Shown one piece after another: positions 13,287 to 32,808 of a DNA stretch of 40,488 nucleotides. The translations under genes were made by a program, and so were the position numbers. The notes beneath the pieces are model-generated. The model did no database searches. It was not told the origin of the DNA and was given only the letters and a program-made list of their open reading frames with translations. Position 1 is the first letter of the stretch. Each line of letters starts with the position of its first letter. Source of the stretch: a virus; the IMG/VR virus record IMGVR_UViG_3300032304_000290, positions 1-40,488 of that record; one strand, given 5' to 3'.

Positions 13287-13298
13287 TTACTTCTTTTT
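13278..13298 (+). terminator. Weak hairpin at the convergent gene junction
   Basis: AAGAAGT-AGTT-ACTTCTT forms a 7-bp AT-rich hairpin followed by T residues on the + strand. It straddles the polymerase stop (TAG 13284-13286) and the stop of the - strand virion gene (13287-13289), which abut with no spacer. It may end transcription from one or both sides. Confidence 0.45.
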
Positions 13299-16172
13299 AG
13301 GAATGGAGTAGTACCGGTCGCCCCGTTTGACAATTTTAGATCCGCGCGCTTCTTCTGCGGCCTCTGCCTTGTCAAACGTTGGGTGGCTTTTTCCTTTTAA
13401 GACAACATAACTATCTTCAGGCATGCCGTGTAGTTGACGCTCGTCGTCTGATGTAGGGGCGACAGATCCAAAGTGACCCTCGTCTTCGCCGGTGCCGGTT
13501 GGGCCCATGCCGTAAGCAAAAGCAGTTTGATAATCATAGTCCGAGCCTGCAGGATTAAATGCAAGACCGCCGGAAGCCATTTTTTCAACTGCTTTTGTTA
13601 CCGGCGTGGGGTCAAACAGTAGCCCCACGTCATCGTTAGCGTAGCCCTTGTAGCCTGCCTTTTTAATCAGGCGCTCAAGCTCGTTTAGGTGCGTTGCCTC
13701 GTCGACTACCTCACGACCAAACTGCATCATGTATGGGTCGATCGCTCTTTCTCTTGCAATCGCTGAGAAGCCCATAGGGTCATCGTGCAGCGGATAAAGA
13801 TCTTCCGCGACGCCCTCGTACTTATGTGGTCCAAGTCCCTGCTCTGGCTGGCGTCCGCCCGCCTTGGTGTAGATGTAGGTACGAGGACGAATGTCTGGTG
13901 CGTTTTTTAAACGACCTGACTCCGCGCCCTTGATGCCAGTCCCGTACATATTGGGATCCAGCGTCGAGATGTTGGGCGCCTTGCTGTAGTGTACGAACGG
14001 CACAGACTTAGCGTGCTCCAGTGCCTTCTTGGCGGCCTTAATAGCACCACCGGCGGCGTACCCCTTGTAGTTAATATCAATTTGCTCTGGCGGTAGTATT
14101 AAAGGCTTCTGGGGGGCATACTGGAACTGCTGTCCCAATTTTAATAATTCGTTGTTAATATCGGACGGGTCTCCACCAGATTTTACTAATTGATCGCGTT
14201 GTATTTTTAACTGGTTCATTGCGTTGATTAACTCTTCGTTCATACCCGAGTAGCTAACTAAAGAATTTTGACCTCGCGTCTCAGTCGCGGCAGCCAAGCG
14301 CGCCAGCGGTGAGTACATTTGCGAGTGGGCCCCATACGCTAACTCTTCACCCTTAGGTCCGAATGACGCGCCGGTGGTACCGTGCCCAAAATAATCATGC
14401 GCGGCCCTAAACTGTTCGTTTCCCTCTTTGCCAAGCGCTGGGTGGGCCTCTCCACCTTGAAACACCATGAGGTGTTTGTTTTCTAAGGCGTCCTCAAGCA
14501 TTTCCTTAGAGCTCTTATATCCTTGGGCGCCGGTTGGGTCCCAAGACAGCTTAACGCCAGCGCCTTCAATTGCCTGAAACTGATCGCGTGTCTCTTTAGC
14601 CATCTGTTGATACGCGGCCTGGGTTAGCTCGTCATAGTTTGTGGCACCAGATTTTCTAACAAGGTCTGGGTGTGATTGCACGTACTGTTTAAATATTTGC
14701 TGTTTAACCTTTGGGTCAACATTCTCAGATGATAGCATCTCAAACGCCCTTGCCACGGGCGTCTGTTTTTGTGCCGATGATACCGGCATTTTTTTAATTG
14801 CTTCTAAGTTAAATTTAGGCGCAATCTTTTTTGCTAACTCAATCGCAGTGTTTACTTTACCACCAGCTTGATATTTTTTACCTGGAAAGTCAGACAGCTC
14901 GAGCCGTGGATCATCCCAGCTTGTTGTCTCCAGGCTGCGCTTAGGCGCAATGATAAGCGGACCAGACTGCAGCTTTTCTTCAGCGGAGAAGACAGGCAAC
15001 CCCGTCTGTTTGTCGTAGAACTGGGAGTGACGACGTGGGTCCATGCCGATCTGTGTATAGGCCGGGTCGCGCATCATCTCTTCCATCATGCGACGAACTT
15101 CGTCATCCTTAGTGCCAACGTTAGTACCCTTAATCATCGCCTTTGGAGTTTTTGATGTTCCAATTTCTGCACCCAATGGTGTAAGCGCCTGCTCCTTGGT
15201 TCCAAGGCCGACACGCACAAATGTATCAGGTGAGGAAGAAAACTCTACATCTTTGAGGTGTCCAGTTCTACCATAGCTAATCGGTTTACCAGCGGCGTCA
15301 TGCGTTGTATCAATGTACACACCGTGCTGTGTGTACGCTGGAATATCCAGACGATTACCGACTCGCATGCCTACAGGCACAGGAGCTAATGCCTTAGGTT
15401 GTTTGTTCGACAACAAGGCATTTCTGATCTCGTCATCGGTATAGTTTGGTGGCAAGTCTTTCCACTGACGGATTGGCAAAAACTGATTCATAATCCGAAT
15501 GCGCTCTTCTTGGCTAATGTTGCCCTTGAGGTATTCTTCCAGTGCCTGCGCTACTCGGGGGTCCTGGCCGTGTGGGTTACGTACGGCCTTAGCCAGTTTA
15601 GTCAACGCTCCTACCTTACCACCTGCAGCCTTCATAAAGTCTGGGTTGGCAGCTTCTTCCGGGTTGTACTCAGCAAACTTGCCGCGGATGTTTTGTGGCT
15701 TTAACACACCGACGTTAGGTATGCCACCCTCTACAACGTGGAATGTATCGTGACCGGTGTTCTTTAAGTGTGTTAGGAAGTCTGAGTTTTCAATTGCCGT
15801 CCAGTCACCGCGCTTCAATCCTTTTTCCAGGTTAACGCGCTTTGGGTATGCAGCAATAAACTCAGATATAACTGCCTGGCCTTCTGGTGTATTTGGATTC
15901 CAGTGTTGGCCTAAATTAACACTAACCGGGTACATGGTCGAGCCAGACTTAATTTTGCCGCTGTTGTTCATAGATAAGAACGACTCAGCAAATTCCGGAT
16001 CCCTGGTAACAAACGTCGCCTTCGGCGTGGTGTACATTGGATCTTTTTTTGACTTAGTAGGGTCAAACTCTTTAATGTCAGGCGACGGACTGCCATGATA
16101 AAAGCCGGTCGTGAATTTCTTTTTAAACTCTTCGACGGCCTTCTTCATCTGCGCTGGAGTTAACTTCGCCAT
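13287..16172 (-). CDS. Large polyvalent virion protein with ADP-ribosyltransferase-like domains
   Basis: A 961-residue multidomain protein. Residues ~20-180 resemble an ADP-ribosyltransferase-like domain (GFYHGSPSP, ATFVTRDPEFAESF, then NVGVLKPQNIRGKFAEYNP). Residues ~270-430 hold a module with PRRHSQFYDKQTGLPVFSAEE. Residues ~565-645 hold QFRAAHDYFGHGTTGASF and AHSQMYSPLARLAAATETRG. Residues ~725-865 start FVHYSKAPNISTLDPNMYGT and resemble a second transferase-like domain. The C-terminus has YVVLKGKSHPTF. Such modules occur in large polyvalent phage proteins thought to be carried in the particle and delivered to the host. Gly-Gly motifs at 184-185, 437-438, 708-709 and 868-869 separate the modules. 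Domain calls are by pattern memory; enzymatic activity is inferred. Confidence 0.6.
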   Translation of the reverse strand: MAKLTPAQMKKAVEEFKKKFTTGFYHGSPSPDIKEFDPTKSKKDPMYTTPKATFVTRDPEFAESFLSMNNSGKIKSGSTMYPVSVNLGQHWNPNTPEGQAVISEFIAAYPKRVNLEKGLKRGDWTAIENSDFLTHLKNTGHDTFHVVEGGIPNVGVLKPQNIRGKFAEYNPEEAANPDFMKAAGGKVGALTKLAKAVRNPHGQDPRVAQALEEYLKGNISQEERIRIMNQFLPIRQWKDLPPNYTDDEIRNALLSNKQPKALAPVPVGMRVGNRLDIPAYTQHGVYIDTTHDAAGKPISYGRTGHLKDVEFSSSPDTFVRVGLGTKEQALTPLGAEIGTSKTPKAMIKGTNVGTKDDEVRRMMEEMMRDPAYTQIGMDPRRHSQFYDKQTGLPVFSAEEKLQSGPLIIAPKRSLETTSWDDPRLELSDFPGKKYQAGGKVNTAIELAKKIAPKFNLEAIKKMPVSSAQKQTPVARAFEMLSSENVDPKVKQQIFKQYVQSHPDLVRKSGATNYDELTQAAYQQMAKETRDQFQAIEGAGVKLSWDPTGAQGYKSSKEMLEDALENKHLMVFQGGEAHPALGKEGNEQFRAAHDYFGHGTTGASFGPKGEELAYGAHSQMYSPLARLAAATETRGQNSLVSYSGMNEELINAMNQLKIQRDQLVKSGGDPSDINNELLKLGQQFQYAPQKPLILPPEQIDINYKGYAAGGAIKAAKKALEHAKSVPFVHYSKAPNISTLDPNMYGTGIKGAESGRLKNAPDIRPRTYIYTKAGGRQPEQGLGPHKYEGVAEDLYPLHDDPMGFSAIARERAIDPYMMQFGREVVDEATHLNELERLIKKAGYKGYANDDVGLLFDPTPVTKAVEKMASGGLAFNPAGSDYDYQTAFAYGMGPTGTGEDEGHFGSVAPTSDDERQLHGMPEDSYVVLKGKSHPTFDKAEAAEEARGSKIVKRGDRYYSIPKKK

Positions 16173-18565
16173 TATTGCTTTTCTTCCTGTAAGGCTCCCA
16201 GACCACCAACAGAGCCCGCACCAATTCCATACATTGGCTTGTTGCCACGGATAAATCCTTTTAGAATTTCTTCTTTAGGCTCTCCTGTAATGGCGTGCGT
16301 TCTTTCGATCATCTCATTAATCTCTTGCATCATAGGCTTGCCAGGGTAATCCTTTGCTCCGGCCCATGCAATGTCTTGAAAGTTAGCAGGTTGAACACCA
16401 GCTTTTTTAGCCTCTTTAGCAAGTGCCTGCTGATAAATACCATAGGCATTTGGTGGAGGTGACATCATTTTTGGATCCCATAACTGACTCATCTGCTCGT
16501 CCAGAGTAGATACATCACGATGACCTAAAAAGTTAGCTGAGAAATTATGGCGCTTTGGGTTAGTTACAGGAATCTCACCCATCTCAGCCAATTTCTTTGC
16601 CTGCTCCATATTGCCGCTTACAAAACGACCACCGATTGGAAATGGTAAATCCGCAGCTTTAGTAGGTATTTCTTGGCCTAAACCTTTTTGATAATTTGTA
16701 AACGCGGCCATCATTAAATTAGAGTTTGGATCTGCGCCGCCAGTGGTTGCTGCCATGGCATCAGCAAATCGAGCCTTAAATTGTTTACGGCCTTCTACAG
16801 GACCAAACTCCTTAATAAACTCTTGTTCCAGTTGACCCATAGCATACCAATCTTTAGCAGCTGGGCGGTCTTTTGCTTTTTCAAATGCACCGCGTAGTCT
16901 TGCCAACGCCTCAGGATCATTTGCTAGTGCCTCGTACTTGGCAATTGTATCTGCTTTTTTAGGCACAATATCTGTAGCGGTATATCCGGCTGTTGGGTAA
17001 TGTGACGGATCTGCATAAAACCTTTTTTCAACATCAAAAAATGGTTGATAGTTACCGGCATCAATTTGCTTTTGTGCAAACTTGCGAGCTTTTTGTACCT
17101 CTAATGCCTCAGGGCTTAACTGCTTTTGCATAAACTCTTTGCCAGTTTTTGCGTCGACCGCTAATACCGGAGGAATTACATCGGGGTATTGTTGGGACAT
17201 CTTGTATGGGTCGTAGTTAAACTTTTTAGAAAGCTCTAAACCCTTTTTTGCTATTGACCCCAACGCACCGACCTTACCACCACCAGCCATCTGCGGCATC
17301 ATGGAACTAAGTGGTGACTGCTGCATAGGTGGTTGCTGCATAGGTGGTTGCTGCGGGGGCATACCTGGAGGCATACCAGGCATACCGGGGGGCATACCAC
17401 CCTGTGGTGGCGCCATAGGCGCTGGCGCTGGTGCAGGGGCTGCAGTAGCCTGCTGCATCAGCTGGTCTAAGAAGTCGCTTAGTGACTTTAGCTTAGGGTT
17501 TGGTGTAACCGAACCACCCATTGCCATTCCAGGTGCAGTTTGCTCCTCTGGCTCGTTGCGTGGATTACGCTTGTCTAAGAAGTTTGCAATTGCGCCAGCA
17601 CCCTGCGATATAATGGCCGCAGGAATACGAGCCTTACCGGGGAACATAGAGCGCATACCGGCAGCAGAGCCAAGTAAGTTAGTAGCGCCGGCCGCAACAT
17701 CACTACCAGTTAAATCTGGACGAGTTAGTCTGTTGTACGCCTGTGTGCCCTGTGCGCCGGCCTCGTAACCACCCATAATAGGCAGAGCCACCTTGCCGAC
17801 AACGTTTGCGCTTCCGGTTAACATGTTTTTGCGGTTTGCTTGATCTCTAAGCATATCGCGCTCTTGCAACCGAGCGGCTCGGTTTTGAGCTACCGCGTTT
17901 ACTTCTGCCTGGTTTGTTGCATTTGCTTGGGCTTGCAATGCCGCACGTTGCTTTGCTATTGCTTCTGCGTCTTGCTCGGGGATGGCCAGCCGGCTACCAG
18001 GTTGTACCTTCATCGTAGGATTGGCTGCCTCAAAGGCGGCGCGTTCCTTGGCAAACTTATCTGCCTCGCTGTAGTTTGAACCACCTAAAAATTCACCGGC
18101 GTGTTGGCCTGCGCCCTCGCCAGGTCTTCCTGCGGTCCAGTTACGCACCGTAGTCGTCGTGCCTTCAGGAAGATCTACGGGAGTGCGACGCTCAATAGCA
18201 CCCTGTGCTACAGCGGACGGATCTTGGAACGTGCGGGGCTTTACCTTTGGCGGGCCACTAGGCTCCATACCCATTAATTTTTCACCAGCACGAATAAGTG
18301 GTCGGCCCTTACTGTAAATAACATCACCGGCAGCACCAATTGCTCCGAGACCAGCACCAGTGTAACCAAATAGCTCGGGACTCTCACGTTCTATAACCGG
18401 CTCTGCAGGCTTTTGTCTTGACGCTAGAGCGTTTAAAATTTCTGTGTCAGCAATTCCGGCGGCGCGAGCGCCTGCCAGGTCATAGTTATGAACCTGGGCC
18501 AGGGTGTCGATGATCTCTGCATCTGGAATACCCGCCTTACGTGCGCTATCTAAATCGTAGCCCAT
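16172..18565 (-). CDS. Large multidomain virion protein with Pro/Met/Gln linker
   Basis: A 797-residue protein whose stop overlaps the next start as TAATG. Residues 3-24 and 28-49 are two tandem repeats (DLDSARKAGIPDAEIIDTLA and DLAGARAAGIADTEILNALA). Residues 60-340 are Ala/Gly-rich with helices, and 375-425 form a Pro/Met/Gln linker. A folded C-terminal module (about 445-797) includes DWYAMGQLEQEFIKEFGPVE and GHRDVSTLDEQMSQLWDP. Gly-Gly motifs MAMGGSV (347-353) and MAGGGKVGAL (426-435) flank the linker; GGKVGAL is shared with the 961-residue neighbour. It is probably an internal, ejected or tail-associated protein. No enzymatic motif is certain. Confidence 0.55.
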   Translation of the reverse strand: MGYDLDSARKAGIPDAEIIDTLAQVHNYDLAGARAAGIADTEILNALASRQKPAEPVIERESPELFGYTGAGLGAIGAAGDVIYSKGRPLIRAGEKLMGMEPSGPPKVKPRTFQDPSAVAQGAIERRTPVDLPEGTTTTVRNWTAGRPGEGAGQHAGEFLGGSNYSEADKFAKERAAFEAANPTMKVQPGSRLAIPEQDAEAIAKQRAALQAQANATNQAEVNAVAQNRAARLQERDMLRDQANRKNMLTGSANVVGKVALPIMGGYEAGAQGTQAYNRLTRPDLTGSDVAAGATNLLGSAAGMRSMFPGKARIPAAIISQGAGAIANFLDKRNPRNEPEEQTAPGMAMGGSVTPNPKLKSLSDFLDQLMQQATAAPAPAPAPMAPPQGGMPPGMPGMPPGMPPQQPPMQQPPMQQSPLSSMMPQMAGGGKVGALGSIAKKGLELSKKFNYDPYKMSQQYPDVIPPVLAVDAKTGKEFMQKQLSPEALEVQKARKFAQKQIDAGNYQPFFDVEKRFYADPSHYPTAGYTATDIVPKKADTIAKYEALANDPEALARLRGAFEKAKDRPAAKDWYAMGQLEQEFIKEFGPVEGRKQFKARFADAMAATTGGADPNSNLMMAAFTNYQKGLGQEIPTKAADLPFPIGGRFVSGNMEQAKKLAEMGEIPVTNPKRHNFSANFLGHRDVSTLDEQMSQLWDPKMMSPPPNAYGIYQQALAKEAKKAGVQPANFQDIAWAGAKDYPGKPMMQEINEMIERTHAITGEPKEEILKGFIRGNKPMYGIGAGSVGGLGALQEEKQ

Positions 18566-18574
18566 TTACTGTCC

Positions 18575-20320
18575 TTATTTAAAAAAATCTTTTGCTGTTT
18601 TTTGTGTGGATTCCGCGGATTCATTTTGAAAGAACTCGGGGAAGCGTTTACGTACGCGCGCATCTTTTTCGTCCATAGCTTTTTTGTACTCAGGCGTCTC
18701 ACGGAAACGATTAAAGTCTGCCGGCATTCCTTCTGCCCGTGCCTGCTTTTGGTACGCTTCCCATGCGTTGTTACGTTGCAGGGTCATCATCTCGTTTTCG
18801 CGGTTTAGCACGGTAAAGATCAAGTTGGCTGCGGCAGGGCTGTCAACGCTAAGACCTTTAGCAACGCCAGCCATCTTCATGTCGGCGTTAGACAATGTCC
18901 CGCGCCCTTCACCGGTAAGGTTGTTTTTAGCAAACTCCACACCTTGCCGGGTTGCAATACTGTTAAATATGTTACGTGCCTCAATAGCCTTCTTAGGCAA
19001 GCTCTTTTGAGCAACCGCTTCTTCAATGCCCTCAGACTTAACCATGCCAAGGATTGGAATGGTAGTGCCGGGTTTTACTAACTGGATAACTGCCGCGGTT
19101 GCAGAGCCGTCCTGGGCGATACCAAAAGCCTTTGGATATTTTTTAAGAATATTTTCAGCCATGTCATATTCTGTGATATTGTTTTTGGCGCTAGAGGCCG
19201 CTGACCGAAGCTGCACCGCGGACTCGCCGGCTGCTTTTTCAATTGGCTTTTGCTGCTCCATGCGGGCAGCAATTTGTTGCTTTGCTGCTTCAGCTTTAGC
19301 GTCCAAATCTTCCTTGCTACCTAGTGCAAAGCCAGTCTGTAGCGTAGGGGCCACTAACGGAGCCTGCATAGTTGGCTTGGCCGTTACAGGAGCCGATACA
19401 GGAGCACTAGGTGTTGATACAGGGGCGCTAGGAGTTGATACAGGAGCGCTAGGCATTGCCGTAGATACTGGGCTTGGCTGCGCCGGTGTCGTGGGAGATA
19501 CGGGGCCTGGACGCATTGCACTTGGTTGTCCTCCGGGTGCTGCAGGACCACCCACTGGGGACATTCTCTGTGCCGAGCCGAGGGGTGTTGATTGAGTTGT
19601 ACCACCAACACCGCGAACATCGTGCGGAACAAAAGCACCGGAGCCAGCAATTTTAGTAAGTGCTATTGACGGTACTAACTTAGGATCAAGCCACCCTGCG
19701 CTAACAGCGCGGCTAATTGTCTTAATTGTTTCTGGGTCTTCTGCGTTTTTAGCTAAATACGATTGAATGGATTTAAGCGCGCCTTCGTTATCTCCTAGCC
19801 TTCCTTGATTTGCAATACTTTCCCTTAACGGAAGATCACGCACAAGGCTGAGCATACCGCCTTGCTGCGAACCAGGGGCTGCAGGTGCCGCGCCAGGTGC
19901 TGCACCTGGAGCAGTTAGTTGACCAGCGGCAGGCGTCGGCATTTCTGTTGGTGCACCAAACAAAGATTGGCTTGCCAGTCTATTTCTTTCTTGAGCAGCA
20001 CGGTACGCAGCCATCTGTTGGCGCATGTCAAACGTGCTTTTTTGTTCTGCTTGTTCTTGTTGGTTGAGCTGGTTTAACGCAGCTGATGGGCCTTGTATGC
20101 CGCCGGATCCCCAAGCAGCCGCACGCTCTAGGCCGCGGTTAAATGATGCCATGGGGCCTTGACGTGAGTCAATCATGGCCTGCATATTGGCCAATAGATC
20201 CGTTGTCTGGGTTGGGTCTAGTGGAGTTTTTTTAGCGTCGGTTTTCGAAGGAGGAGCCAGTGTTTCGCCCGCAGCACCACCGGTTTGAAAATAAGATAAT
20301 CCGTTTTTTATATTTGGCAT
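18575..20320 (-). CDS. Internal/ejection-type virion protein, Gln- and Pro-rich
   Basis: The frame is open from 20377, but I place the start at 20320 (MPNIKNGLSYFQTGGAAG), 1 nt after the upstream stop, giving 581 residues. The N-terminal third is helical and Gln/Ala-rich (ALNQLNQQEQAEQKSTFDMR). The middle (about residues 220-335) is a Pro/Ser/Thr/Ala-rich linker with repeated APVSTPS units. The C-terminal part is helical (GRGTLSNADMKMAGVAKGLS; RKRFPEFFQ). Composition and position in the giant-protein operon suggest an internal core or DNA-ejection protein. A Gly-Gly motif lies near the N-terminus. It is not recognised beyond that. Confidence 0.5.
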   Translation of the reverse strand: MPNIKNGLSYFQTGGAAGETLAPPSKTDAKKTPLDPTQTTDLLANMQAMIDSRQGPMASFNRGLERAAAWGSGGIQGPSAALNQLNQQEQAEQKSTFDMRQQMAAYRAAQERNRLASQSLFGAPTEMPTPAAGQLTAPGAAPGAAPAAPGSQQGGMLSLVRDLPLRESIANQGRLGDNEGALKSIQSYLAKNAEDPETIKTISRAVSAGWLDPKLVPSIALTKIAGSGAFVPHDVRGVGGTTQSTPLGSAQRMSPVGGPAAPGGQPSAMRPGPVSPTTPAQPSPVSTAMPSAPVSTPSAPVSTPSAPVSAPVTAKPTMQAPLVAPTLQTGFALGSKEDLDAKAEAAKQQIAARMEQQKPIEKAAGESAVQLRSAASSAKNNITEYDMAENILKKYPKAFGIAQDGSATAAVIQLVKPGTTIPILGMVKSEGIEEAVAQKSLPKKAIEARNIFNSIATRQGVEFAKNNLTGEGRGTLSNADMKMAGVAKGLSVDSPAAANLIFTVLNRENEMMTLQRNNAWEAYQKQARAEGMPADFNRFRETPEYKKAMDEKDARVRKRFPEFFQNESAESTQKTAKDFFK

Positions 20321-20321
20321 A

Positions 20322-21242: not shown

Positions 21243-21244
21243 GA

Positions 21245-24200
21245 TTATGCTCTCTTTTTAGCTTCTATTAAGTATGCGAGTGGGCCCGCGGAGTCTGGGG
21301 GTAAATCTTCTGGATCGTGATCTTGTCTGTGCTCACGGACAACTTGCAACAACTGGTCTAACACACTGGCTCCAGCCTCATTGCTGCCGTTACCTAGTGC
21401 TGCAACGACGTCTGCAGGAATAACAAACTCGCCGTTAGCAAGCATTGCTGGGACCTCGTCGCTGGTGCCGTTACCGTCACCCTGAACGTAACGGTTCTCT
21501 AGTGTGCCAAGGCCACCCTCACTGAAGAACTGAGGGTTGTGATCTGCAAGGCCACCTTCCGCCATAAACCTTGGGTTAAAAGCTGGTAGGTCATATCCTA
21601 CATTGCGTTTTGTCATGCCTACTTTTAGTTTAGGCATCTTTAAGTCAGAACCAACAAACGGCGACGTAGCCGGATCTGAAATACCCGCGTTGTCTGATGT
21701 GCCATAGGTTGATCTAGCTAATCCAAATGGGTCGTATTGTGTTGCCACTGCGCCTCCTGAAGCCATCTTAAATTGGCCGGCTAATTGATAGTCTGTCCTG
21801 GCCTTAGTTAAGCCTGGTGTTAAGTCGTAAATGCCTGTTGTATCTTGCGCGGCTTGTGTTGCACGTATCTGAGGTATTGTTAATGGCCGAGGTGCTGTGC
21901 CACCGCCACCGCCGCCTCCGCCGCCGCTGCCTGTGCCGCCGGTGCCAGTTCCGGTGCCGCCTGTGCCAGTGCCAATGTCCACACCTTCACCACCCCCGCC
22001 AGTGCCTGTGCCAGTGCCGCCGCTTCCAGTGCCGGTGCCGGTTGTACCCGCCCCGGTGCCCGTGCCTGTTGTGCCCGATCCTGTACCGGTTGTGCCTGTT
22101 GTGCTGGTGCCTGTGCCAGTTGTGCCTGTTGTTCCGGTACCAGTAACGCCAGTTCCTGTAACACCCGTGCCTGTAACGCCTGTACCAGAGTTAATAGCTC
22201 TAGTAATTACGCTAGGACTAACACCTGTTGCCAATGAAACTTTATTTAAAGTGTTGGCGGCATTGGCACCTTTGTTAATTAAATCTGCGGTTAACGAAAT
22301 GGCTAAATTAATAGCTTCAAAATCATTATTAGCAGAACCCGGCGCTTTAGGTTGGCTGTCTGTAATTGCTTTTAAATATACATCTGCAGCTGCTTTAGAT
22401 ATTTTACCATTTGCTAGACCATCATTAATCTCGGCTGTAGTTGGTAATGTCCCGTCTTTAATATCTTGGGCAATTTCAGCTGCTGTTGGTGCTTCGCCTT
22501 CTTTAGGTGTTGTTCCAACCGATTCTGCAGTACCAACACCGCCGCCGCCAGTATCTGAAACAGGTACGGGTTTCCATGTTGATGTTTCGGTATCAAAATA
22601 CTTTGCATCATACAATTGTGTTTGTATGCCTTGCGGATTTTTTAAAACATCGGATAAAATTTGAGAATCTTCTGCCGTAAACTTTACTGTTACATTTGCC
22701 GCAACTTGTGTTCCTGTTCCAGCGGCAACAGCGGCTTGTTGTTGTCCTTCAGCTAAAGTTTGAGCTAATTCAGAATCTGCCCCTTGACTTATATAATTGT
22801 TATAAGCGCTTATTGCTTGAGGGTTGGTTAATGAGCTTGGAACTGTTGCAGCAACACTACTTGGACTAACCGTTGCGCTTTGATCACTGCCTGTGTACGG
22901 CTGACCTGTAGCCGGATTAATATTCGTATCGGCCGTGGTCGTATCTTTTGCCTTTGCAATACTGGAAGCACCAGATATAACGCCGGTGACAATAGACTGT
23001 AAAATTTGTTCGTTACTCTTACCACTTAACGCAGCAGTAGACCCGGTATTAACAGCAAGTTGTACAGTTCTAGCTAATTTGGCAACACTGTCTTTATCAA
23101 ATCCAGCATCTTTCATTTGACTTACGATTTGCTCTGATGCGCCAACACTTAATCCCGAGGATACTAGAGCAGTTCCAAACGCATCTAAAATTTTATCTCC
23201 GTTAGCGCCAGGTGTGACACCTGTTGCTAATGTACGAGCTAATGTTTGGGAAACAACTGACTGCACACCCGCTGGTGAAATTGCACCGCCCATTAGTTCA
23301 CTGGCACTGGTAAAAATAGAATTTGCTACTTTTGTTCCGTCTGCTGCAATTGTTGGCGGAAACGCCGTATTTAATCCTTCAGATAAACCTTGCGTTATGC
23401 CGGCGGTTACACCACCAACAACAGCACCTTTTACAGACGCATCACCAATACTTTTTCCACTAATTGTTGCGTTTGCCGCGCCAACACCAGCGCCAAGTAC
23501 AACTCCAGTTGCTATGGTGGCACCAATACCAGCACCCATAGTGGATATAAAGTATGCTGATAATTGTGGTGCAAAAGCCGCTGCACCAATTGCAACCGCC
23601 ATGGTGAGAAAAGTTCCAAACGAATTATCTTTTGGACGATAGATGTCCATGTTCTGCACACCGCCGTGTGCTTGCGGCGCGCTAATAGGAATTAATTCAT
23701 CGCCTGTTCGTTTGTAAAACACCGTGTCAAAACTTTGAGCGCCGCCTTCTTTAGCTCGACCCGCTGTCAACGAGTCGCCCGTGTACCTGTAAATATCTTT
23801 TGCTACTTCGCTTACCGCATCATACAGCTGTGACTCGGCAGTAATGGTCTGCATGACGGGCGTTGTATTACCAGACTCATCAGTCTGAAAAGCAGGCTGC
23901 CCACCTTTTGTTACAAGCTGCCCGTACTCATCATACTGATCTTTTGTTGTTGCTTGTACTTGCTTGTCCTTAAACTGCGTTGGGTCTATACCAACTAACT
24001 TAGCTGCTTCGTTTACGCCGGTGTAAGATACCTGCCCAGTTTCGGGATCGACTGTTGTGGTGACACCCAAAGCATTTGCACCCCTAGACAAATCACCACT
24101 AAACGAATTAGACGACCAACCTAAGTCACTGACTAAATTACCGCGGCTGTGCGAGAAATCCGAAACCGTTGCGCTGTTATCATAACCTAAAATTCGGTCT

Positions 24201-25762
24201 GCCGTTTTTGCGTTAAGAATGGGTACATTAGCACCACCCATATTAACAGTGCCGTACTGACCGTACACCGTACGATCCGTGCGAACTAACTCGTCTGGCC
24301 GTTCTGTTAATGGTGTTACTTGCTCCCACATTGTAGGATTCTCGGCTTTTAGTTTTGCGCCAAGTACTGGGTCTAATGCAATCTGCTTATAAATATCCGC
24401 TAACTTAGCATTTTGGTCCAAGGCTGAACTTGGATCCGCAAAAAATCTGGCGTACTGATTTATTTGTTCTGGCGTTAAAGTTTTAAAAAACTCCGTACCC
24501 AGTGTGGCTTCTAGCAACGGTGATATATCACTGGTTGCGGTTTTAATGCCTTCGTCGGATAGGGCAATTGCCCTTGCAATGTCTTGAGGTGCAACGCCGG
24601 CTTGCAGCTGTTCTATCCAGTACTTTCCACCGGCAGCGTCAGGTGCACGACCAAGGTATTCCATGTAGTCGTCGTAGACTGTGCCCTCTGGAGATGACCC
24701 TATTGACTTTAAAATATCTTCAAAAGGTGTGCCTTTAGAAATCTGGTCATACCAGTTTTGAATTTCTTCTGGAGACCCTTTTCGACCTAATTCAGTTTCG
24801 TATGAAGCACCAATGTCGTACTTGCGACCCTCTTCAGATAACCCTATTGACTTTAAAATATCTTCAAAAGGTGTGCCTTTAGAAATCTGGTCATACAAAT
24901 TTTGAATTTCAGTTTCTGAACCTACTCGGCCCAATTCAGTTTCATAAGCCTTTGCGATGTCGTACTTGCGACCCTCTTCAGACTGCGCAATTTGTTGGCG
25001 TAACTGTTCTGGTGTTAGGTTTTGACCAGACCAGAATTGAGCGCCAGGGGCATCTGGAGCACGGCCAACTTCTTGTTGGTAAATGTCATACATCGAACCT
25101 TCTGGAGACGCGTTAAACGCTTTTTCAATATCTGCTCTTGATGTTCCCGAACCAAGCGACTGCATCCAAAAGTCATACCCTGGTTGGTCGTACTCACGAC
25201 CTAGTTCTTTGTCATACAACCCAGAGAGAAATTGACGGTTTTTATACTCGTCACTAGATTGCAAAATAGCTAATTCATTTGGATCCAATGTCTCACCAAA
25301 TGCTTGACTCCAAGCATTTAAGCCACCAATGTCTGCCTCGCGTCCTAAGCTAGTTTTATACCAATCAGCAATTGCCGATGTTGATCCATAGGTCGGGGTA
25401 ATAGCTTGTGCGTTGTCAAACTCAGAACCTGCACTTTGTACTGTCACGTTACTTAACGCGCCAGTGTTATTTAAGTCAGAACCGGCGTTTTGCGCCGTAA
25501 CGTTATTTAACGCACCTGTGTTAAACCCCGTAGATTGTGACTGGGCTCGTGCCTGCGCCTCTGGAGAGTTTGTAAACGCATTTTGAATGTCACCAAAAGA
25601 CGTTCCAGATTGGGCAGCGTTTTGCCAAAAAGCCAAACCCTCTGGATCTGGGGCACGGCCCAGCACGGACTGATACAAACCAGCGATAGGGTCGTTAGTA
25701 GATCCACCATCATCAAAATGGCGGATTTTATATCGCGGGTCTAGCATGTCCAGAGCGGACAT
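21245..25762 (-). CDS. Giant DUF4214-repeat virion protein
   Basis: At 1505 residues this is the longest product. Residues ~26-405 contain about seven DUF4214-like repeats (pattern LGRAPDPEGLAFW...F..S.E). Residues ~715-791 are a long hydrophobic Gly/Ala-rich stretch (AVAIGAAAFAPQLSAYFIST) able to insert in a membrane. Residues ~1191-1291 are a Gly/Thr-rich low-complexity tract. The C-terminus has GGLGTLENRYVQGDGNGTSD, EVPAMLANGEFVIPADVV and LGNGSNEAGASVLDQLL, a module I recognise from phage virion proteins. Gly-Gly motifs are at 19-20, 1336-1337, 1403-1404 and 1416-1417. It is probably a tail or ejection protein that contacts the envelope. Confidence 0.65.
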   Translation of the reverse strand: MSALDMLDPRYKIRHFDDGGSTNDPIAGLYQSVLGRAPDPEGLAFWQNAAQSGTSFGDIQNAFTNSPEAQARAQSQSTGFNTGALNNVTAQNAGSDLNNTGALSNVTVQSAGSEFDNAQAITPTYGSTSAIADWYKTSLGREADIGGLNAWSQAFGETLDPNELAILQSSDEYKNRQFLSGLYDKELGREYDQPGYDFWMQSLGSGTSRADIEKAFNASPEGSMYDIYQQEVGRAPDAPGAQFWSGQNLTPEQLRQQIAQSEEGRKYDIAKAYETELGRVGSETEIQNLYDQISKGTPFEDILKSIGLSEEGRKYDIGASYETELGRKGSPEEIQNWYDQISKGTPFEDILKSIGSSPEGTVYDDYMEYLGRAPDAAGGKYWIEQLQAGVAPQDIARAIALSDEGIKTATSDISPLLEATLGTEFFKTLTPEQINQYARFFADPSSALDQNAKLADIYKQIALDPVLGAKLKAENPTMWEQVTPLTERPDELVRTDRTVYGQYGTVNMGGANVPILNAKTADRILGYDNSATVSDFSHSRGNLVSDLGWSSNSFSGDLSRGANALGVTTTVDPETGQVSYTGVNEAAKLVGIDPTQFKDKQVQATTKDQYDEYGQLVTKGGQPAFQTDESGNTTPVMQTITAESQLYDAVSEVAKDIYRYTGDSLTAGRAKEGGAQSFDTVFYKRTGDELIPISAPQAHGGVQNMDIYRPKDNSFGTFLTMAVAIGAAAFAPQLSAYFISTMGAGIGATIATGVVLGAGVGAANATISGKSIGDASVKGAVVGGVTAGITQGLSEGLNTAFPPTIAADGTKVANSIFTSASELMGGAISPAGVQSVVSQTLARTLATGVTPGANGDKILDAFGTALVSSGLSVGASEQIVSQMKDAGFDKDSVAKLARTVQLAVNTGSTAALSGKSNEQILQSIVTGVISGASSIAKAKDTTTADTNINPATGQPYTGSDQSATVSPSSVAATVPSSLTNPQAISAYNNYISQGADSELAQTLAEGQQQAAVAAGTGTQVAANVTVKFTAEDSQILSDVLKNPQGIQTQLYDAKYFDTETSTWKPVPVSDTGGGGVGTAESVGTTPKEGEAPTAAEIAQDIKDGTLPTTAEINDGLANGKISKAAADVYLKAITDSQPKAPGSANNDFEAINLAISLTADLINKGANAANTLNKVSLATGVSPSVITRAINSGTGVTGTGVTGTGVTGTGTTGTTGTGTSTTGTTGTGSGTTGTGTGAGTTGTGTGSGGTGTGTGGGGEGVDIGTGTGGTGTGTGGTGSGGGGGGGGGTAPRPLTIPQIRATQAAQDTTGIYDLTPGLTKARTDYQLAGQFKMASGGAVATQYDPFGLARSTYGTSDNAGISDPATSPFVGSDLKMPKLKVGMTKRNVGYDLPAFNPRFMAEGGLADHNPQFFSEGGLGTLENRYVQGDGNGTSDEVPAMLANGEFVIPADVVAALGNGSNEAGASVLDQLLQVVREHRQDHDPEDLPPDSAGPLAYLIEAKKRA
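21890..22190 (-). repeat. Gly/Thr low-complexity repeat tract in the giant virion gene
   Basis: About 300 bp of imperfect short repeats (units such as GGTACAGGC on the coding strand) encode alternating Gly-Thr runs, e.g. VTGTGVTGTGVTG and later GTGTGGTGSGGGGGG. It joins the membrane-active/central part to the C-terminal module and probably acts as a flexible linker. Such tracts are prone to length change. Confidence 0.8.
24697..24896 (-). repeat. 56-bp exact direct repeat within DUF4214 units
   Basis: Positions 24697-24752 and 24841-24896 are identical and lie 144 bp (48 codons) apart, each covering QISKGTPFEDILKSIG. The identity at DNA level points to recent duplication of one repeat unit in the giant virion protein. 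Confidence 0.85.
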
Positions 25763-25912
25763 TTACTCAGTGATGTTCTTAGCGCGGGCTGCGAGGGCTT
25801 CTTGTACTGCCTTTTCAAAGGCAGGATTAACTGCATCCTTAGGCTGTTTGGCAAGCATAGCATCAGCTACTGCTTTGTCATTGAGGTACTTCATTGTCTG
25901 TTGACCGTGCAT
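25763..25912 (-). CDS. Small hypothetical protein heading the giant-protein operon
   Basis: A 49-residue gene with a strong AAAGGAG ribosome site and start at 25912, 28 nt after promoter copy 6. The product begins MHGQQTMKYLNDKAVADAML and continues with a helical, Ala/Lys-rich body. It is followed immediately by the 1505-residue gene. It is not recognised; as first gene of the unit it may be a small assembly protein. Confidence 0.7.
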   Translation of the reverse strand: MHGQQTMKYLNDKAVADAMLAKQPKDAVNPAFEKAVQEALAARAKNITE

Positions 25913-25940
25913 ATTGACTCCTTTGGGGTTAGTTTGCTTC

Positions 25941-25957
25941 TATATATAATAATACAA
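25941..25957 (-). promoter_or_regulatory. Copy 6 of the conserved phage promoter element
   Basis: On the - strand this is a perfect TTGTATTATTATATATA, fused to the T-tract of the terminator just upstream. It precedes the small gene at 25912 and the whole giant virion protein operon down to 13287. Confidence 0.75.
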
Positions 25958-25978
25958 AAAAAGGGCACTTAGCGCCCT
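25956..25978 (-). terminator. Rho-independent terminator ending the adaptor/fibre operon
   Basis: On the - strand a 7-bp stem (AGGGCGC with GTGCCCT, one G-T pair) with a TAA loop is followed by seven T. It starts 2 nt after the stop of the 84-residue gene, and its T-tract is the start of promoter copy 6. Confidence 0.85.
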
Positions 25979-25980
25979 AT

Positions 25981-26235
25981 TTATTGACTTGGACCGTTGA
26001 TAATTAAGGTAAACTCACTGGCCCAGGGTTGCCAGGTTTCAAATAGGTCTGGGTCTGGTACTGGAAACACCTCAAAGGTCGGTAGCTGGGATACGTTTTT
26101 TGCCACCATTTTCCAGTTCTCTTCTTCTGGTGTGTACGGTATGGGCTCTTCAGAAAAGAACATGATCAGGTTTCCATTCCAGGACTGCCAGTCTGATCCC
26201 TCCGGAATGAACGGAAAGAATTTTTGAATTGACAT
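25981..26235 (-). CDS. Conserved small phage protein (FFPFIPEGSDWQSWNGN type)
   Basis: The 84-residue protein begins MSIQKFFPFIPEGSDWQSWN and has an EEPIPY segment, LPTFEVFPVPDP and a final WASEFTLIINGPSQ. I recognise this pattern from small conserved proteins of podovirus-like phages near tail genes; function is unknown. It shares one base with the upstream gene's stop, so it is coupled to the 716-residue tail protein. It is the last gene before the terminator. Confidence 0.7.
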   Translation of the reverse strand: MSIQKFFPFIPEGSDWQSWNGNLIMFFSEEPIPYTPEEENWKMVAKNVSQLPTFEVFPVPDPDLFETWQPWASEFTLIINGPSQ

Positions 26236-28385: not shown

Positions 28386-29650
28386 TAGAATGTACCGCCC
28401 TTAATTCCTTTAATTGCTGTAAACGTAGCTGGAGTGCTTACCTGTGGATCTAAGGGCGTCGTATTATCTATCAACATCATCTCCGTACCATTAGCCGAAA
28501 GACCTAGTATATTTACTGCATCCAAATACATGCCTGTTGCTGTGTCGTTTAAAAACGAAAAACTTGGCGCAGCAGCAGAACCATTTTGTGCAAAAAATAC
28601 GGTTGTCGTTGTCTGCGAAATAACGAATAGGAAGTTACCGTCACTTAAGAGTAAAACAACGGAGCCAGGGGTTACAACAATAGGTGCCTGGGCGCTGCCA
28701 GCTATTTGAAATGTAATGTTATACACAACACCGGTTGTGTCGTTTAATATAATATATAGCTGGGTTGTTGCTGGTAACGAAACATTCAATGTAGTTGTTC
28801 TGGTACCAGAAAGCGCTACATACGTCTGAATAATTGGAGCGTATGACACAAGACTAAATGAGTTGCCGACTATGGCGTCTACGTCATACGTTGCCGATGT
28901 GAACGTTACGTTTGATGGAGTAGCTAAGCCAACGGTAAAGAAATTGCCAGTCGTTGACTGGAACATTAGCATACCAGAATCGCCTGGGTTTATGGTAACG
29001 TTTGGCAGACCGTTAATTTGTGACGCACCTGTAGGTACAATATTAACTGCACCTGTGCCATTGTTACGGAAATTAAAATACCAACCGGGGGTTAATCCTG
29101 CCACGGCTGGTAATGTAAACGTGCCGTTGCCGCCAGTCCATACGTATGTATTTGCTCGGCTGTCGTTATTAAAAGTAGGTGCAGTAGATACGGTTAGTGG
29201 TGCTTGTGTTACCGCTAATTTACCTGCTAGGGTTGTTAATCCGGCACCCTGCAAAGACGCCGCATCCGCAGAAGACGTGCCCGTACCAAGGGTGATGTTC
29301 TGCCATGTGCCTACTTCAGTAGAGTTATCTGATAGGTAAAAGTACTTTGTTTGCCCTGCCGCGATCGATACAGAGGCCCCACCAGCTGAATTGGTTACAA
29401 CAAACGAAACAGCTCCTAAGTTACGAAAGAAGATGTCAGTACCTTCTGAGCCTTGACCACCGGGCGGCAAAGCAATCGACAACCCAGCTGTAGAAGGAGT
29501 GCAGTCCATGATGCGGGCTGCAGGAACCTCTGGTGGGTTAACTGTTACAGGCCAGTGTAGCGTCTGGTTAGTACTAAACGCTAAGGGAAAGTACGTGACG
29601 TCTGTCTGTTGGACGACGGTGCCAGTAAACGGCGATACGAATGTCGTCAT
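28385..29650 (-). CDS. Tail fibre or spike-like protein
   Basis: A 421-residue protein rich in Thr, Ser, Gly, Asn and Val, with many short beta strands (SGMLMFQSTTGNFFTVGLAT; NTYVWTGGNGTFTLPAVAG). It has very few charged residues, typical of trimeric phage fibre or spike proteins. It ends KGGTF, the same four-residue terminus as the collagen-like fibre at 38070-39449. It follows two adaptor genes and precedes the tail protein. Receptor binding is inferred. Confidence 0.5.
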   Translation of the reverse strand: MTTFVSPFTGTVVQQTDVTYFPLAFSTNQTLHWPVTVNPPEVPAARIMDCTPSTAGLSIALPPGGQGSEGTDIFFRNLGAVSFVVTNSAGGASVSIAAGQTKYFYLSDNSTEVGTWQNITLGTGTSSADAASLQGAGLTTLAGKLAVTQAPLTVSTAPTFNNDSRANTYVWTGGNGTFTLPAVAGLTPGWYFNFRNNGTGAVNIVPTGASQINGLPNVTINPGDSGMLMFQSTTGNFFTVGLATPSNVTFTSATYDVDAIVGNSFSLVSYAPIIQTYVALSGTRTTTLNVSLPATTQLYIILNDTTGVVYNITFQIAGSAQAPIVVTPGSVVLLLSDGNFLFVISQTTTTVFFAQNGSAAAPSFSFLNDTATGMYLDAVNILGLSANGTEMMLIDNTTPLDPQVSTPATFTAIKGIKGGTF

Positions 29651-29653
29651 TTA

Positions 29654-30274
29654 TTAAGGTTCCTGTACCGTAGTGTTTCTATCAATCTTGCGGCTGTTGT
29701 CTTCTTTTTTCAGTGCTGCGATGCAGTCGTTGTAGTATGATTTCCACACTGGCAACTTGTCTAACGCTTTTAAATAGCCCTGAGCTTGTAGCAGTGTGCC
29801 GAATAACATCGCCTGCGGGGCAATTTGAGTAAATAGGTTTGTTTGATTTGTTGAGTCTAAAGGCTGTACCAAGCTGTAGTAAATAATTTCTACTGCGTAG
29901 TCGTCATCGGGCTCTGGCGCAAAGTTCCAGTTATTGTAGTCGTACTCGGCGTAGAACTTTGGTATGCCTGGGGTAGACTCAGATAAGTACTGGGCTATGT
30001 AGTCTTGTGATCGCATCACAACCGGAGCGCCGTTAATTTTCATTGAGACGGTTTTTCTCCAGCGTGTTGGTTTAATCAACACAGGATCGCCAGGGGTTAA
30101 GTTTGTTTGCACAACTACCAATTGCAACAGAGTCTTTAACTCTGCCGCAATGGCGGACTCTGCCAAACCAATTAATGTTGGAATTTGTGCAATAAAGTCT
30201 GCGTCGTTACGCTCCATGTACTGCTGAACGTCAAGCACCAGATTATCATACGTTTGGATATATGCTGTAGTCAT
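29654..30274 (-). CDS. Head-tail adaptor-like protein
   Basis: The 206-residue protein has a helical N-terminus (NLVLDVQQYMERNDADFIAQ, then IPTLIGLAESAIAAEL), a beta region around the basic KPTRWRKTVSMKING, an acidic PEPDDDYAVEIIYY strand and a final helical pair. This layout resembles phage connector/adaptor proteins that join portal and tail. It overlaps the upstream adaptor-like gene by 4 nt. Family assignment is from pattern recognition. Confidence 0.55.
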   Translation of the reverse strand: MTTAYIQTYDNLVLDVQQYMERNDADFIAQIPTLIGLAESAIAAELKTLLQLVVVQTNLTPGDPVLIKPTRWRKTVSMKINGAPVVMRSQDYIAQYLSESTPGIPKFYAEYDYNNWNFAPEPDDDYAVEIIYYSLVQPLDSTNQTNLFTQIAPQAMLFGTLLQAQGYLKALDKLPVWKSYYNDCIAALKKEDNSRKIDRNTTVQEP

Positions 30275-31350
30275 CGTGTGTAGTAACTGATGTTAGGTTG
30301 GAAGTAGATCGGAGACTTGTCACGGTCTTCTTCTTCAAATGCTGTACGAGCGTCCATTGCTAATTTTTCCAGGTACTGAACCCTGGCTAAGTCTGATCCA
30401 GGTAACTGCATTGCCAGCTTGTGTGACAGCGCAGATTGGAAGTAAGGCAAAGCGCGGTCTGGCATGTACAGCTCATTTGTCAGTGAGCCAACGTCTTGTG
30501 GCTGACACTCAAGGATCAAGGAAAACGCTTGGAAGTTATTGTTTGGTACAGGCCACAAGTACATCTCTGGGTCAATCTGTCGATTAAACCAATACTGCAA
30601 TGTGCGCTCGCTTGGGAATTGTTTGTTTGGCAGGGAGAAGTAGTCGGTACGATTAAGCCTTGCCATCGGAATGACTTGCTGCGACTGCGCAAACTGAATT
30701 GCACGAAGAGAATACGTACTGCCAGCGGTGCGGTTGTTTAGCCTGTAGAAGTTAAACGCCTGCGTGGTGTTGATACCATAGTACTTCCACTCGCGGTCTT
30801 TTAGGGTTACTGCTGGGAATGACTCCCATGTCGTCCATGTGATGCCGTCATTACTTACCTGGAAATCAAGATTATAAGTAGCAGACCCACCAGGAGCATA
30901 GGCATTAAATCCCACATAGAATAACCTCGTAGCTTGTGAGTACGCGGCACCAAAGAAGTTGGCGCCTAGCGAAGTTGTTACGTGTTGATTCAGATCTGCG
31001 TTTGCAGACTGGTCAAACAACAAAGAGACGTTAGGGTTTGAAGTTGGTAATGTGCTGGAGAAGGTTGGATTTACCATGTAGATCCAGTTTGCTTCTAGTA
31101 CGTCCACGCAGTTAGCCGGCATGGGCAATACCTGCTGGTTGGTCTGTGCGCCGATGACGACAACCTCTTGCAGCCAGATATTAATACCACGATTGACAGA
31201 GGTCTGCAGGATGTAAAAAAGCGCCTGTTTGGCGGCTTGTACATACTCAGGGGTCATCTCTTCCGAGGTCTTTCCTGCGTCGCGAAACGCATAGGAAATA
31301 AGCTGATCTACGTTGACCTTAGTCTGATTATATGTGCCAGAGTATGCCAC
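30271..31350 (-). CDS. Adaptor/tail-tubular-like protein with beta-sandwich insert
   Basis: It starts with GTG (31350), giving 359 residues. The N-terminal helices (VNVDQLISYAFRDAGKTSEE, then MTPEYVQAAKQALFYILQTS) are of the type seen in podovirus gatekeeper/adaptor proteins. Residues ~145-230 form an insert (LDFQVSNDGITWTTWESFPA through YRLNNRTAGSTYSLRAIQF) resembling a discoidin/F5-8 type C carbohydrate-binding beta-sandwich. The C-terminus continues the adaptor helices. It is probably part of the tail tube or neck, decorated on the outside by the insert. Confidence 0.55.
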   Translation of the reverse strand: MAYSGTYNQTKVNVDQLISYAFRDAGKTSEEMTPEYVQAAKQALFYILQTSVNRGINIWLQEVVVIGAQTNQQVLPMPANCVDVLEANWIYMVNPTFSSTLPTSNPNVSLLFDQSANADLNQHVTTSLGANFFGAAYSQATRLFYVGFNAYAPGGSATYNLDFQVSNDGITWTTWESFPAVTLKDREWKYYGINTTQAFNFYRLNNRTAGSTYSLRAIQFAQSQQVIPMARLNRTDYFSLPNKQFPSERTLQYWFNRQIDPEMYLWPVPNNNFQAFSLILECQPQDVGSLTNELYMPDRALPYFQSALSHKLAMQLPGSDLARVQYLEKLAMDARTAFEEEDRDKSPIYFQPNISYYTR

Positions 31351-31352
31351 TG

Positions 31353-31520
31353 TTACCTTCCGCGGCCCGCGGCTCGCTTTTGTACTTTATTGGGTAGATT
31401 CTTAGACGCCGGGCCTGCCTTGACAAACTCCTTGCCAACCTTCTTAGGGATGCCAAGGGTTGATTTGCCGGCGGCCGCGGCGTACATTGCGCCTTTTTGT
31501 GCTTCGGACTTAAAAGGCAT
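31353..31520 (-). CDS. Small basic phage protein (MPFKSEAQ type)
   Basis: A 55-residue gene, starting in TAATG overlap with the Lys/Gly-Gly-rich gene. The product begins [20 protein letters not shown] and ends in a basic tail ([11 protein letters not shown]). The MPFKS.AQ opening is a recurrent signature of short basic phage proteins of unknown role found near structural genes. Its composition suits binding to packaged DNA. Confidence 0.65.
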
Positions 31521-32218
31521 TAGCAGACCTTCCCGCCCTTTTTGGCGTACCCCATCTTGTTACGCACCGTGGTGGGTAACTTAGACAGGCCTGGGTTTTC
31601 GTTAGCGTCAACTTCTTTTAAAGAACCGCCTTCTGCACACTTTTTAATTTTGCCACCTTTTTTGTACTGACCTGCTGGGGGAGGAACTAATCCTGCTGCA
31701 GCTGGAGACTGCTTAATCAGTTCGCTTTGTTGTGCTGGGTCGAGCATTCTGGCGCGCTTGAGCTTTTCCATCATACGGCGCTTCTCTAAGTCTGTAACCG
31801 CTCCTTGACCCATTGCTGCTGAGGGGGCTGCCGCCATAGGGCCTGCTGCGGCTGGGCCAGTCATGCCGCCCATTTGCATCTTCTTAGCCTTTTGGCGTTT
31901 TGTGTTGGCGATGTCTTTTATGTCTTTTTTTGTCTTAGGTGTGCCGTATGCGTTCTCTACGCTACCGCCTGCCTTGTAACGGCCGACGCAGCCGCCTTCT
32001 TTCTTGGCACGACCACCCATTTTGAGCTTGAGTTCGGTCTTGGGCTGACCCTTATGCAGCTTCTCTTCGTGCTGCTTAACACCCTTTTTGACGATTGACT
32101 TGTCTTGTGCAATGTCCCCAGAAACTTCAGTCTTGCGCTCGCGCTTCTCGTATGCCTCAATGGCCTTGTCTACTGAGCCGCCGGTTTTCATCTTGATGAT
32201 TTTTTTGAAGTCTTCCAT
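31520..32218 (-). CDS. Lysine-rich protein with eight Gly-Gly motifs
   Basis: The 232-residue protein is rich in Lys, Gly, Met and Ala. The Gly-Gly motif occurs at residues 13-14, 68-69, 75-76, 84-85, 117-118, 188-189, 197-198 and 228-229, usually after Lys, Met or Ala (for example [25 protein letters not shown]). Highly basic segments lie between the motifs. It could be a DNA-condensing or scaffold-like virion protein processed at these sites, or a protein with repeated binding tags. It is the first gene after promoter copy 7. No homologous function is recognised. Confidence 0.6.
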
Positions 32219-32279: not shown

Positions 32280-32300
32280 AGAAAGGGCCTAAAACGCCCT
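32278..32300 (-). terminator. Terminator overlapping the lysozyme stop codon
   Basis: On the - strand AGGGC-GTTTTAG-GCCCT (5-bp stem, 7-nt loop) is followed by TTCTTT. It begins within the stop codon of the lysozyme gene (32299-32301). It is weaker than the others by stem length, but the same terminator-promoter layout is seen. Confidence 0.7.
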
Positions 32301-32808
32301 ATGTACCTGCCAAGAACAGGGCTTTTTCTGCCTTTCTACGCTTTCGTAGCTCGGGCGGATTGGACCAGTTCATAAATGCCTGGGCCGCCTTGTGTGGATC
32401 CCCAGCGTTTAAATACTTCACCACGTCAGACCGGCGCATGTTGTCCGGACCAATGTTGTGGCACAGGCTGTGCAATGCGTCGGCTTGCAGTCTCGTGACA
32501 GACACGCTGAGAGCCGTTTGCAGGGCCGTAGAGCACTTTTCTAGGTCTTGGTGTAGGATACCCCTTACCTGGTCCTCAGAAAGCTCTGTATGCAGCAAAT
32601 GACGCGTCTCACGCCTAATCAAATGCCCTACCCCAATCGTCCAGTTACCCTGGCTGTCTCGGTAGGCTGTGTGGCGCTTTCCCTCAAAATTCTCTATAAG
32701 GTGGAGCGTTGATTCCGCTACCCACTCAAATGGCTGCTCTGGCTTACTCTGGACGCTGTTAAATATGATGGCGAACACAACCAGCCATACCGCTATAAAT
32801 TGAATCAT
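32299..32808 (-). CDS. GH24 lysozyme (endolysin) with N-terminal signal-anchor
   Basis: The 169-residue protein has a hydrophobic N-terminus (residues 2-17, IQFIAVWLVVFAIIFN) suited to a signal-arrest-release anchor. The GH24 catalytic site matches T4 lysozyme in spacing: E42 in ENFEGK, D51 in YRDSQG and T57 in NWTIGVGH. It cleaves the glycan strands of peptidoglycan at lysis. It is transcribed as a single-gene unit between promoter copy 8 and the terminator at 32278, with a GGAGG ribosome site. Confidence 0.9.
   Translation of the reverse strand: MIQFIAVWLVVFAIIFNSVQSKPEQPFEWVAESTLHLIENFEGKRHTAYRDSQGNWTIGVGHLIRRETRHLLHTELSEDQVRGILHQDLEKCSTALQTALSVSVTRLQADALHSLCHNIGPDNMRRSDVVKYLNAGDPHKAAQAFMNWSNPPELRKRRKAEKALFLAGT

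Follow-up and report, generated by a model that had tools for sequence, protein, structure and literature searches.

The stretch of DNA analyzed here, called the window below, corresponds to a linear IMG/VR virus record of 40,488 bases (IMGVR_UViG_3300032304_000290), and its late genes encode five proteins in which a short Gly-Gly motif recurs. Early and replication genes occupy the plus strand (a putative SNF2-type helicase, an Enc34-type single-stranded DNA (ssDNA)-binding protein, a putative ribonucleotide reductase, and a putative PolA-type polymerase), and the minus strand carries the late genes (an SU10-type adaptor, lysozyme, an M15 peptidase, a GTA-type holin, and tail genes). The terminase, portal, and capsid genes lie outside the window. 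A close relative, G001 (61,329 bases), encodes a terminase, a portal, GroES, a scaffold-like protein, and a capsid protein of the Mu gpT/Phage_capsid_4 type; it appears to be near complete, since the order of genes at its end continues at its start, near the ssDNA-binding gene. The window belongs to a freshwater podovirus group whose large late proteins bear the motif.

An earlier note on this sequence had reported the pattern [Y/M/F]-x(1,3)-G-G-[K/S/A/L]-[V/I/L/A] in the five proteins. The proteins lie where it placed them, each of the five peptides that it quoted (YQAGGKV, MASGGLA, MAGGGKV, YKAGGSV, and FMAEGGL) is present, and GGKVGAL is indeed shared verbatim by the 961- and 797-residue proteins. 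The third protein is 600 residues long when read from its first ATG (20377) and 581 residues long from the ATG at 20320, and the latter start fits the relatives better. The proteins and their motif copies are as follows.

13287-16172, minus strand: 961-residue late protein, apparently of polyvalent type, with domains A-B-C-D-E parted by motif copies; phrog_3170 matches domain C.
15603-15638, minus strand: copy FMKAAGGKVGAL, residues 179-190, A/B junction.
14853-14873, minus strand: copy YQAGGKV, residues 434-440, B/C junction; the domain C deletion in L010 and L011 begins here.
14040-14060, minus strand: copy YAAGGAI, residues 705-711, C/D junction.
13560-13580, minus strand: copy MASGGLA, residues 865-871, D/E junction; site of the ART-PolyVal cassette in L008.
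16172-18565, minus strand: 797-residue late protein with a variable N-terminal half, the motif, and a conserved C-terminal module.
17507-17527, minus strand: copy MAMGGSV, residues 347-353, 797-residue protein.
17270-17290, minus strand: copy MAGGGKV (running on as GGKVGAL), residues 426-432, immediately ahead of the conserved C-terminal module.
16196-17245, minus strand: conserved C-terminal module of the 797-residue protein, residues about 441-790.
18575-20320, minus strand: 581-residue late protein with an N-terminal motif.
20270-20290, minus strand: copy FQTGGAA (in SYFQTGGAAG), about residue 11 of the 581-residue reading.
21245-25762, minus strand: 1505-residue late protein with DUF4214 repeats, a TG/poly-G low-complexity tract, and a C-terminal domain related to proteins that carry a tape measure annotation.
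25697-25717, minus strand: loose copy FDDGGST, residues 16-22, near the N-terminus of the 1505-residue protein.
21746-21766, minus strand: copy MASGGAV, residues 1333-1339, 1505-residue protein.
21545-21565, minus strand: copy MAEGGLA, residues 1400-1406, 1505-residue protein.
21506-21526, minus strand: loose copy FSEGGLG, opening the conserved GTSDxVPAMLANGEFVIPADVV domain (about 21323-21526).
31520-32218, minus strand: 232-residue Lys-rich protein built of small motif-bounded cassettes.
32171-32191, minus strand: copy MKTGGSV, residues 10-16, 232-residue protein.
31958-31978, minus strand: copy YKAGGSV, residues 81-87, 232-residue protein.
31646-31666, minus strand: copy YKKGGKI, residues 185-191, 232-residue protein.
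31523-31549, minus strand: C-terminal copy YAKKGGKVC*, residues 224-232, 232-residue protein.

Taken literally, the reported pattern matches 13 distinct Gly-Gly sites in the five proteins (four, two, one, two, and four sites in the 961-, 797-, 581-, 1505-, and 232-residue proteins, respectively), compared with 0.95 expected and a maximum of 4 in 300 composition shuffles. The previous count of about 19 copies was thus too high, and is approached only when looser copies such as HFDDGGST, FFSEGGLG, LKMGGRA, and CAEGGSL are admitted. Elsewhere in the window, the literal pattern occurs once in the other late proteins (0.62 expected) and is absent from the early proteins, as had been claimed; with 0.27 expected, that absence is uninformative within the window alone, and it becomes informative when five relatives are pooled. 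For this we used a strict pattern, [FYM]xxGGx[VILA]. The strict pattern is found 12 times in the late proteins of the window (2.15 expected) and 52 times in those of the five relatives (about 10 expected), whereas the early proteins have none in the window (0.24 expected) and 3 in all six phages together (about 2.4 expected). The core motif, [F/Y/M]-x-x-G-G-x-[V/I/L/A], is therefore real and late-specific, which is the enrichment that the earlier note had proposed to look for, and it has the look of a functional element.

With the first glycine numbered 0, position -3 favors Y/M/F, position -2 favors K/A, position -1 favors E, and position +3 favors V/I. The Gly-Gly dipeptide itself is near chance in the late proteins of the six related phages (610 observed, 578 expected), and therefore the signal is the fixed flanking pattern rather than glycine richness. 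The codons that specify the motif differ among copies, with GGT somewhat preferred, indicating that the constraint acts mainly at the protein level; a DNA-level repeat or microhomology is for the same reason an unlikely cause. Sequence can vary around a retained site: the N-terminal copy of the 581-residue protein persists as SYFNTGGVAD in L002. The 232-residue protein has 8 Gly-Gly sites, 3-6 of which are motif-like depending on strictness.

Comparison of orthologs gives the order of the 961-residue protein as A, FMKAAGGKVGAL, B, YQAGGKV, C, YAAGGAI, D, MASGGLA, E, and whole domains come and go at these junctions. Domain C is gone exactly copy-to-copy in the L010 and L011 orthologs, A is fused to D in L014, and B is replaced by a different domain in L136. 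The L008 ortholog carries, at the D/E copy, an extra cassette that matches ART-PolyVal (PF18760; 1.4e-17 for the L008/L126 match). In G001, a PF18760 cassette bounded by Gly-Gly sites (5.3e-12) interrupts a different late protein, whose gene lies between those for terminase and portal, and the G002 counterpart of that protein reads through uninterrupted as PKFSDGGSTNQMSPE. Domain B is appended to a 797-type protein in L125, where the polypeptide ends in QYKKGGKVKKK*. A small cassette of the 232-residue family, LKxVDxxxNPGLxKLPTxVRNKMGYxKxGG, is C-terminal in most members and N-terminal in L043, L045, and L047. The motif thus marks module boundaries, and the modules are gained, lost, swapped, and moved between copies and between genes.

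With several unrelated domains in one variable polypeptide, the 961-residue protein looks, by sequence, like an effector protein of the 'polyvalent' type. The separated domains A, C, D, and E have no Pfam matches and domain B has only non-significant ones; the window's own protein matches phrog_3170 alone, and PF18760 is found in the orthologs L008 and L126 and in the G001 protein. Like the polyvalent proteins described by Iyer et al. (2017, PMC5512222), it is large and late, combines several unrelated effector-like domains, includes ART-PolyVal in orthologs, and varies in architecture. Unlike them, its modules are bordered by a common short motif that is also present in unrelated late proteins; a term search of that paper's text for 'glycine' and 'linker' found neither.

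Across 850 proteins, 201 of 1022 internal local-alignment ends are no more than 10 residues away from a strict copy, compared with 57.2 (standard deviation 6.1) at random, a 3.5-fold excess for which the ratio is meaningful and a P value is not, because alignment ends are not independent. Near other Gly-Gly pairs the excess is 1.36-fold (812 observed, 599 at random). That breakpoints exceed chance at these pairs as well, that Gly-Gly is flexible, and that the motif-bearing stretches are predicted with low confidence would all be expected if the copies were passive hinges, that is, Gly-Gly seams tolerated between independently folding domains, with breakpoints gathering where exchange is harmless. 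Such hinges would need neither a fixed aromatic residue or Met at -3 nor V/I at +3, and the 797-residue protein provides a further point against them. Its C-terminal module is present in 44 loci, and in many relatives from the group it is preceded by a Gly-Gly copy (e.g., PQMAGGGKVGALGSIAKK, QGYAPGGTVAKK, and KGYAAGGKIVKG). The module has a different N-terminus in L132, L134, L137-L139, L142-L144, L146, L148, L149, L153, L154, and L158, and the stretches fetched for these other phages contain no strict copy. Because these carriers of the same module do without it, the motif is tied mainly to the phage group and not to the domain. We consider passive hinges unlikely, though still a serious alternative. 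In L126 (9161-11341, plus strand), a 797-type protein ends in a DUF6321 domain (PF19846, ...SFCARMGGMKKKLTSAKTANDPNSRINKALRKWKC) that is absent from the window copy.

Some copies lie at the ends of proteins. Seventeen distinct copies are within 5 residues of a C-terminus, compared with 7.1 expected, and the motif ends proteins in the manner of KKGGKAC*, with a GGK[AVT]C ending recurrent in the 232-residue family. Copies are frequently 9 residues apart, the portal-like protein of L150/L151 closes with two of them, and relatives of the 232-residue protein have up to eight. Neither the 9-residue spacing nor the position at extreme C-termini would be needed of a hinge. Tiny late proteins (82-126 residues) with one or two copies each are encoded in L109 (7996-9472, plus strand) and L087 (10357-10889, plus strand), and several such proteins finish in a conserved DGCAxxGKTxG-type tail.

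The explanation toward which we lean, tentatively, is that the motif is an exposed docking or encapsidation element carried by each module of virion-internal, likely ejected proteins. The late-operon position and family resemblance of the five proteins suggest that they are probably virion-internal and ejected. The motif would then be a short linear recognition element, set in the exposed linkers and tails of late proteins that are loaded into the virion and ejected into the host. Every functional module would have its own copy at the border: in the 961- and 797-residue proteins the effector domains, ADP-ribosyltransferase-like or other; in the 1505-residue protein the C-terminal domain of tape-measure-like type; and in the 232-residue protein, which may serve as a multivalent tether, each small cassette. 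We infer that a common virion partner would grip the peptide during assembly, so that any bracketed module would be encapsidated with the DNA. If every module brings its tag, then insertion, deletion, replacement, and transfer from gene to gene could take place without breaking delivery. A docking or packaging tag had been one of the two functions proposed in the earlier note, and it fits the C-terminal copies, the 9-residue spacing, and the flanked, exchangeable modules better than the other, proteolytic processing; the virion location, the ejection, the docking, and the partner are the inferred parts of it.

Several points weigh against a docking element. Some breakpoints also fall at other Gly-Gly pairs, breakpoints and relatives are non-independent samples, and the enrichment at C-termini is modest. 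L150/L151 have copies in other proteins but none ahead of their shared 797-type C-terminal module. AlphaFold models are poor (mean predicted local distance difference test (pLDDT) score 38.6 for the 961-residue and 54.0 for the 232-residue protein), and disorder at the copies is no more than suggested. Virion location is judged from gene position and family resemblance. Finally, cleavage sites or neutral linkers would be just as likely to lie at module borders.

That a widespread lineage uses the motif as a plug-and-play delivery tag, with the bracketed effectors moving between genes and phages as cassettes, is possible, if doubtful. The rules by which phages pick proteins for loading into the capsid and injection are known in few systems. 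A shared tag bordering effector domains would provide a searchable rule for injected effectors in uncultured phages and would open the question of loading to small-mutation tests. If the copies are instead cleavage sites, they would represent polyprotein-style processing without a recognizable phage maturation protease.

The Gly-Gly sites had initially been likened to those of adenain, whose cleavage consensus, (M/I/L)XGG|X or (M/I/L)XGX|G, places a hydrophobic residue two positions before Gly-Gly (PMC4246237). The likeness extends to the recurrence of Gly-Gly sites in several late or virion precursor proteins and fails in register and flanks. When late proteins are pooled over the six related phages, (M/I/L)XGG occurs 74 times (74.7 expected) and the (M/I/L)XGX|G pattern 67 times (74.9 expected), both at chance, whereas [FYM]xxGG occurs 117 times (44.7 expected, a 2.6-fold excess). 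The enriched hydrophobic residue thus sits three positions before Gly-Gly, one farther than adenain requires, and we reject an adenain-type site on this register. No AVP-like gene was recognized. The suggested search for a cysteine protease likewise yielded no C5-type family by Pfam or PHROGs among the late proteins of the window or the scanned proteins of G001, where a very divergent enzyme could escape. Lysis enzymes aside, the same scans of the late genes and of the near-complete G001 recognized neither adenain nor a prohead protease nor any other endopeptidase. No zincin domain was recognized inside the window's large late motif proteins. One peptidase-like candidate is encoded among the early genes.

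1069-1629, plus strand: early protein with an HExxH...E signature (phrog_1365); no other peptidase-like candidate in the window is left unexplained.

This protein has a zincin-like signature, HESSHAIDHL...GETRAY, belongs to a family of unknown function, and is conserved in G001, G003, and G005. RW, HTVC027P, CRP-207, and MW202545, the last three of which are enriched in the motif, yielded no detectable homolog over their sequenced stretches. A role for it as an obligatory protease partner is therefore unsupported.

Cleavage by a protease of another kind, encoded by phage or host, at or beside Gly-Gly could free polyprotein-like modules before packaging or after ejection. The placement of copies between modules that are swapped copy-to-copy is consistent with this, as is the HExxH protein of the window, and there are precedents: for polyvalent proteins, processing by zincin-like peptidases has been proposed, and DdrB of P1 undergoes processing prior to packaging (PMC5512222). 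In P22, a host protease removes the N-terminal 20 residues of the ejection protein gp7 before assembly (PMC4992974), and the gp7 sequence puts the cut at YPE|KGGKGG. This ejection protein resembles the present ones in that a Gly-Gly pair follows the processed bond by one residue; it differs in having one site near the N-terminus and no V/I at +3, and other P22 proteins are without enrichment. Against cleavage stand the chance-level adenain register, the failure to recognize a late endopeptidase, and the patchy detection of the HExxH protein. Little would be gained by cutting at C-terminal copies, since only 0-3 residues would be removed at many of them, and the 232-residue protein would be shredded. 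Overall, we regard cleavage as unlikely, although it deserves serious consideration.

The C-terminal domain of the 1505-residue protein (GTSDxVPAMLANGEFVIPADVV), with two to three motif copies just upstream, is shared with proteins of Nitrincola 1M3-16, Caulobacter GB2A, and DSL-LC04 (E values of 2e-7 to 2e-6) that their depositors annotated as tape measure proteins, a function that is putative. Phage lambda gpH, which is trimmed at its C-terminus as the tail assembles, has two similar copies, FATGGF (position 733 of 853) and YATGGY (position 778), beside a GEFV segment, much as the 1505-residue protein has FMAEGGL and FFSEGGL before its GEFV; these copies are compatible with cleavage. They could also mean that the motif is a small structural piece of a tape-measure-type C-terminus that spread by duplication. 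However, the profile comparison linking the 1505-residue C-terminus to gpH is weak (probability 25.8), and homology of the two C-terminal domains is a lead only. Unlike in the present phage, the copies in lambda were found only in the examined tape measure protein. Moreover, the 232-, 961-, and 797-residue proteins are without the GTSD...GEFV domain and the codons differ among copies, making descent from a tape measure protein highly unlikely. A TG-repeat/poly-Gly tract in the 1505-residue protein (21899-22132, minus strand) is strongly divergent among relatives.

Among other phages compared, the motif is not enriched in T7 (0 observed, 1.7 expected), P22 (1 and 1.9), N4 (1 and 2.0), HTVC010P (1 and 1.1), or CRP-902 (2 and 2.8). 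It is in moderate excess in HMO-2011 (5 and 2.35) and CRP-207 (6 and 2.34) and in strong excess in MW202545 (16, with 3.1-3.4 expected), in which one 449-residue protein has eight copies of the loose pattern. Given that GroES is often encoded in these phages and that the loop of the G001 GroES reads STSKGGIILV, the copies might imitate the GroES mobile loop and recruit GroEL. The hydrophobic triplet that follows Gly-Gly in GroES is missing from most copies, an aromatic residue at -3 is no feature of GroES, and CRP-902 has GroES without motif enrichment, leaving such mimicry barely credible. An earlier description of the motif was not found in the open-access literature; subscription papers were outside the search, and priority is not proven.

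Other features of these genomes were also observed. In the window, the phage lysozyme and M15 peptidase genes are adjacent (32299-33277, minus strand) and neighbor the GTA-type holin. A 396-residue glycine-rich protein of the tail region (34827-36017, minus strand) has 61 Gly-Gly dipeptides and was left out of the motif statistics as low complexity. A 459-residue protein (38070-39449, minus strand) has long collagen-like GPTGPTG repeats that are mirrored by several tandem arrays in the DNA. In G001, the terminase region (L028:19393 onward to L029:1821) contains an open reading frame resembling an intein/Hint insertion (NTKILTLDYWKPAYKLEVGDYVFDRKG), which precedes the open reading frame for the large terminase.

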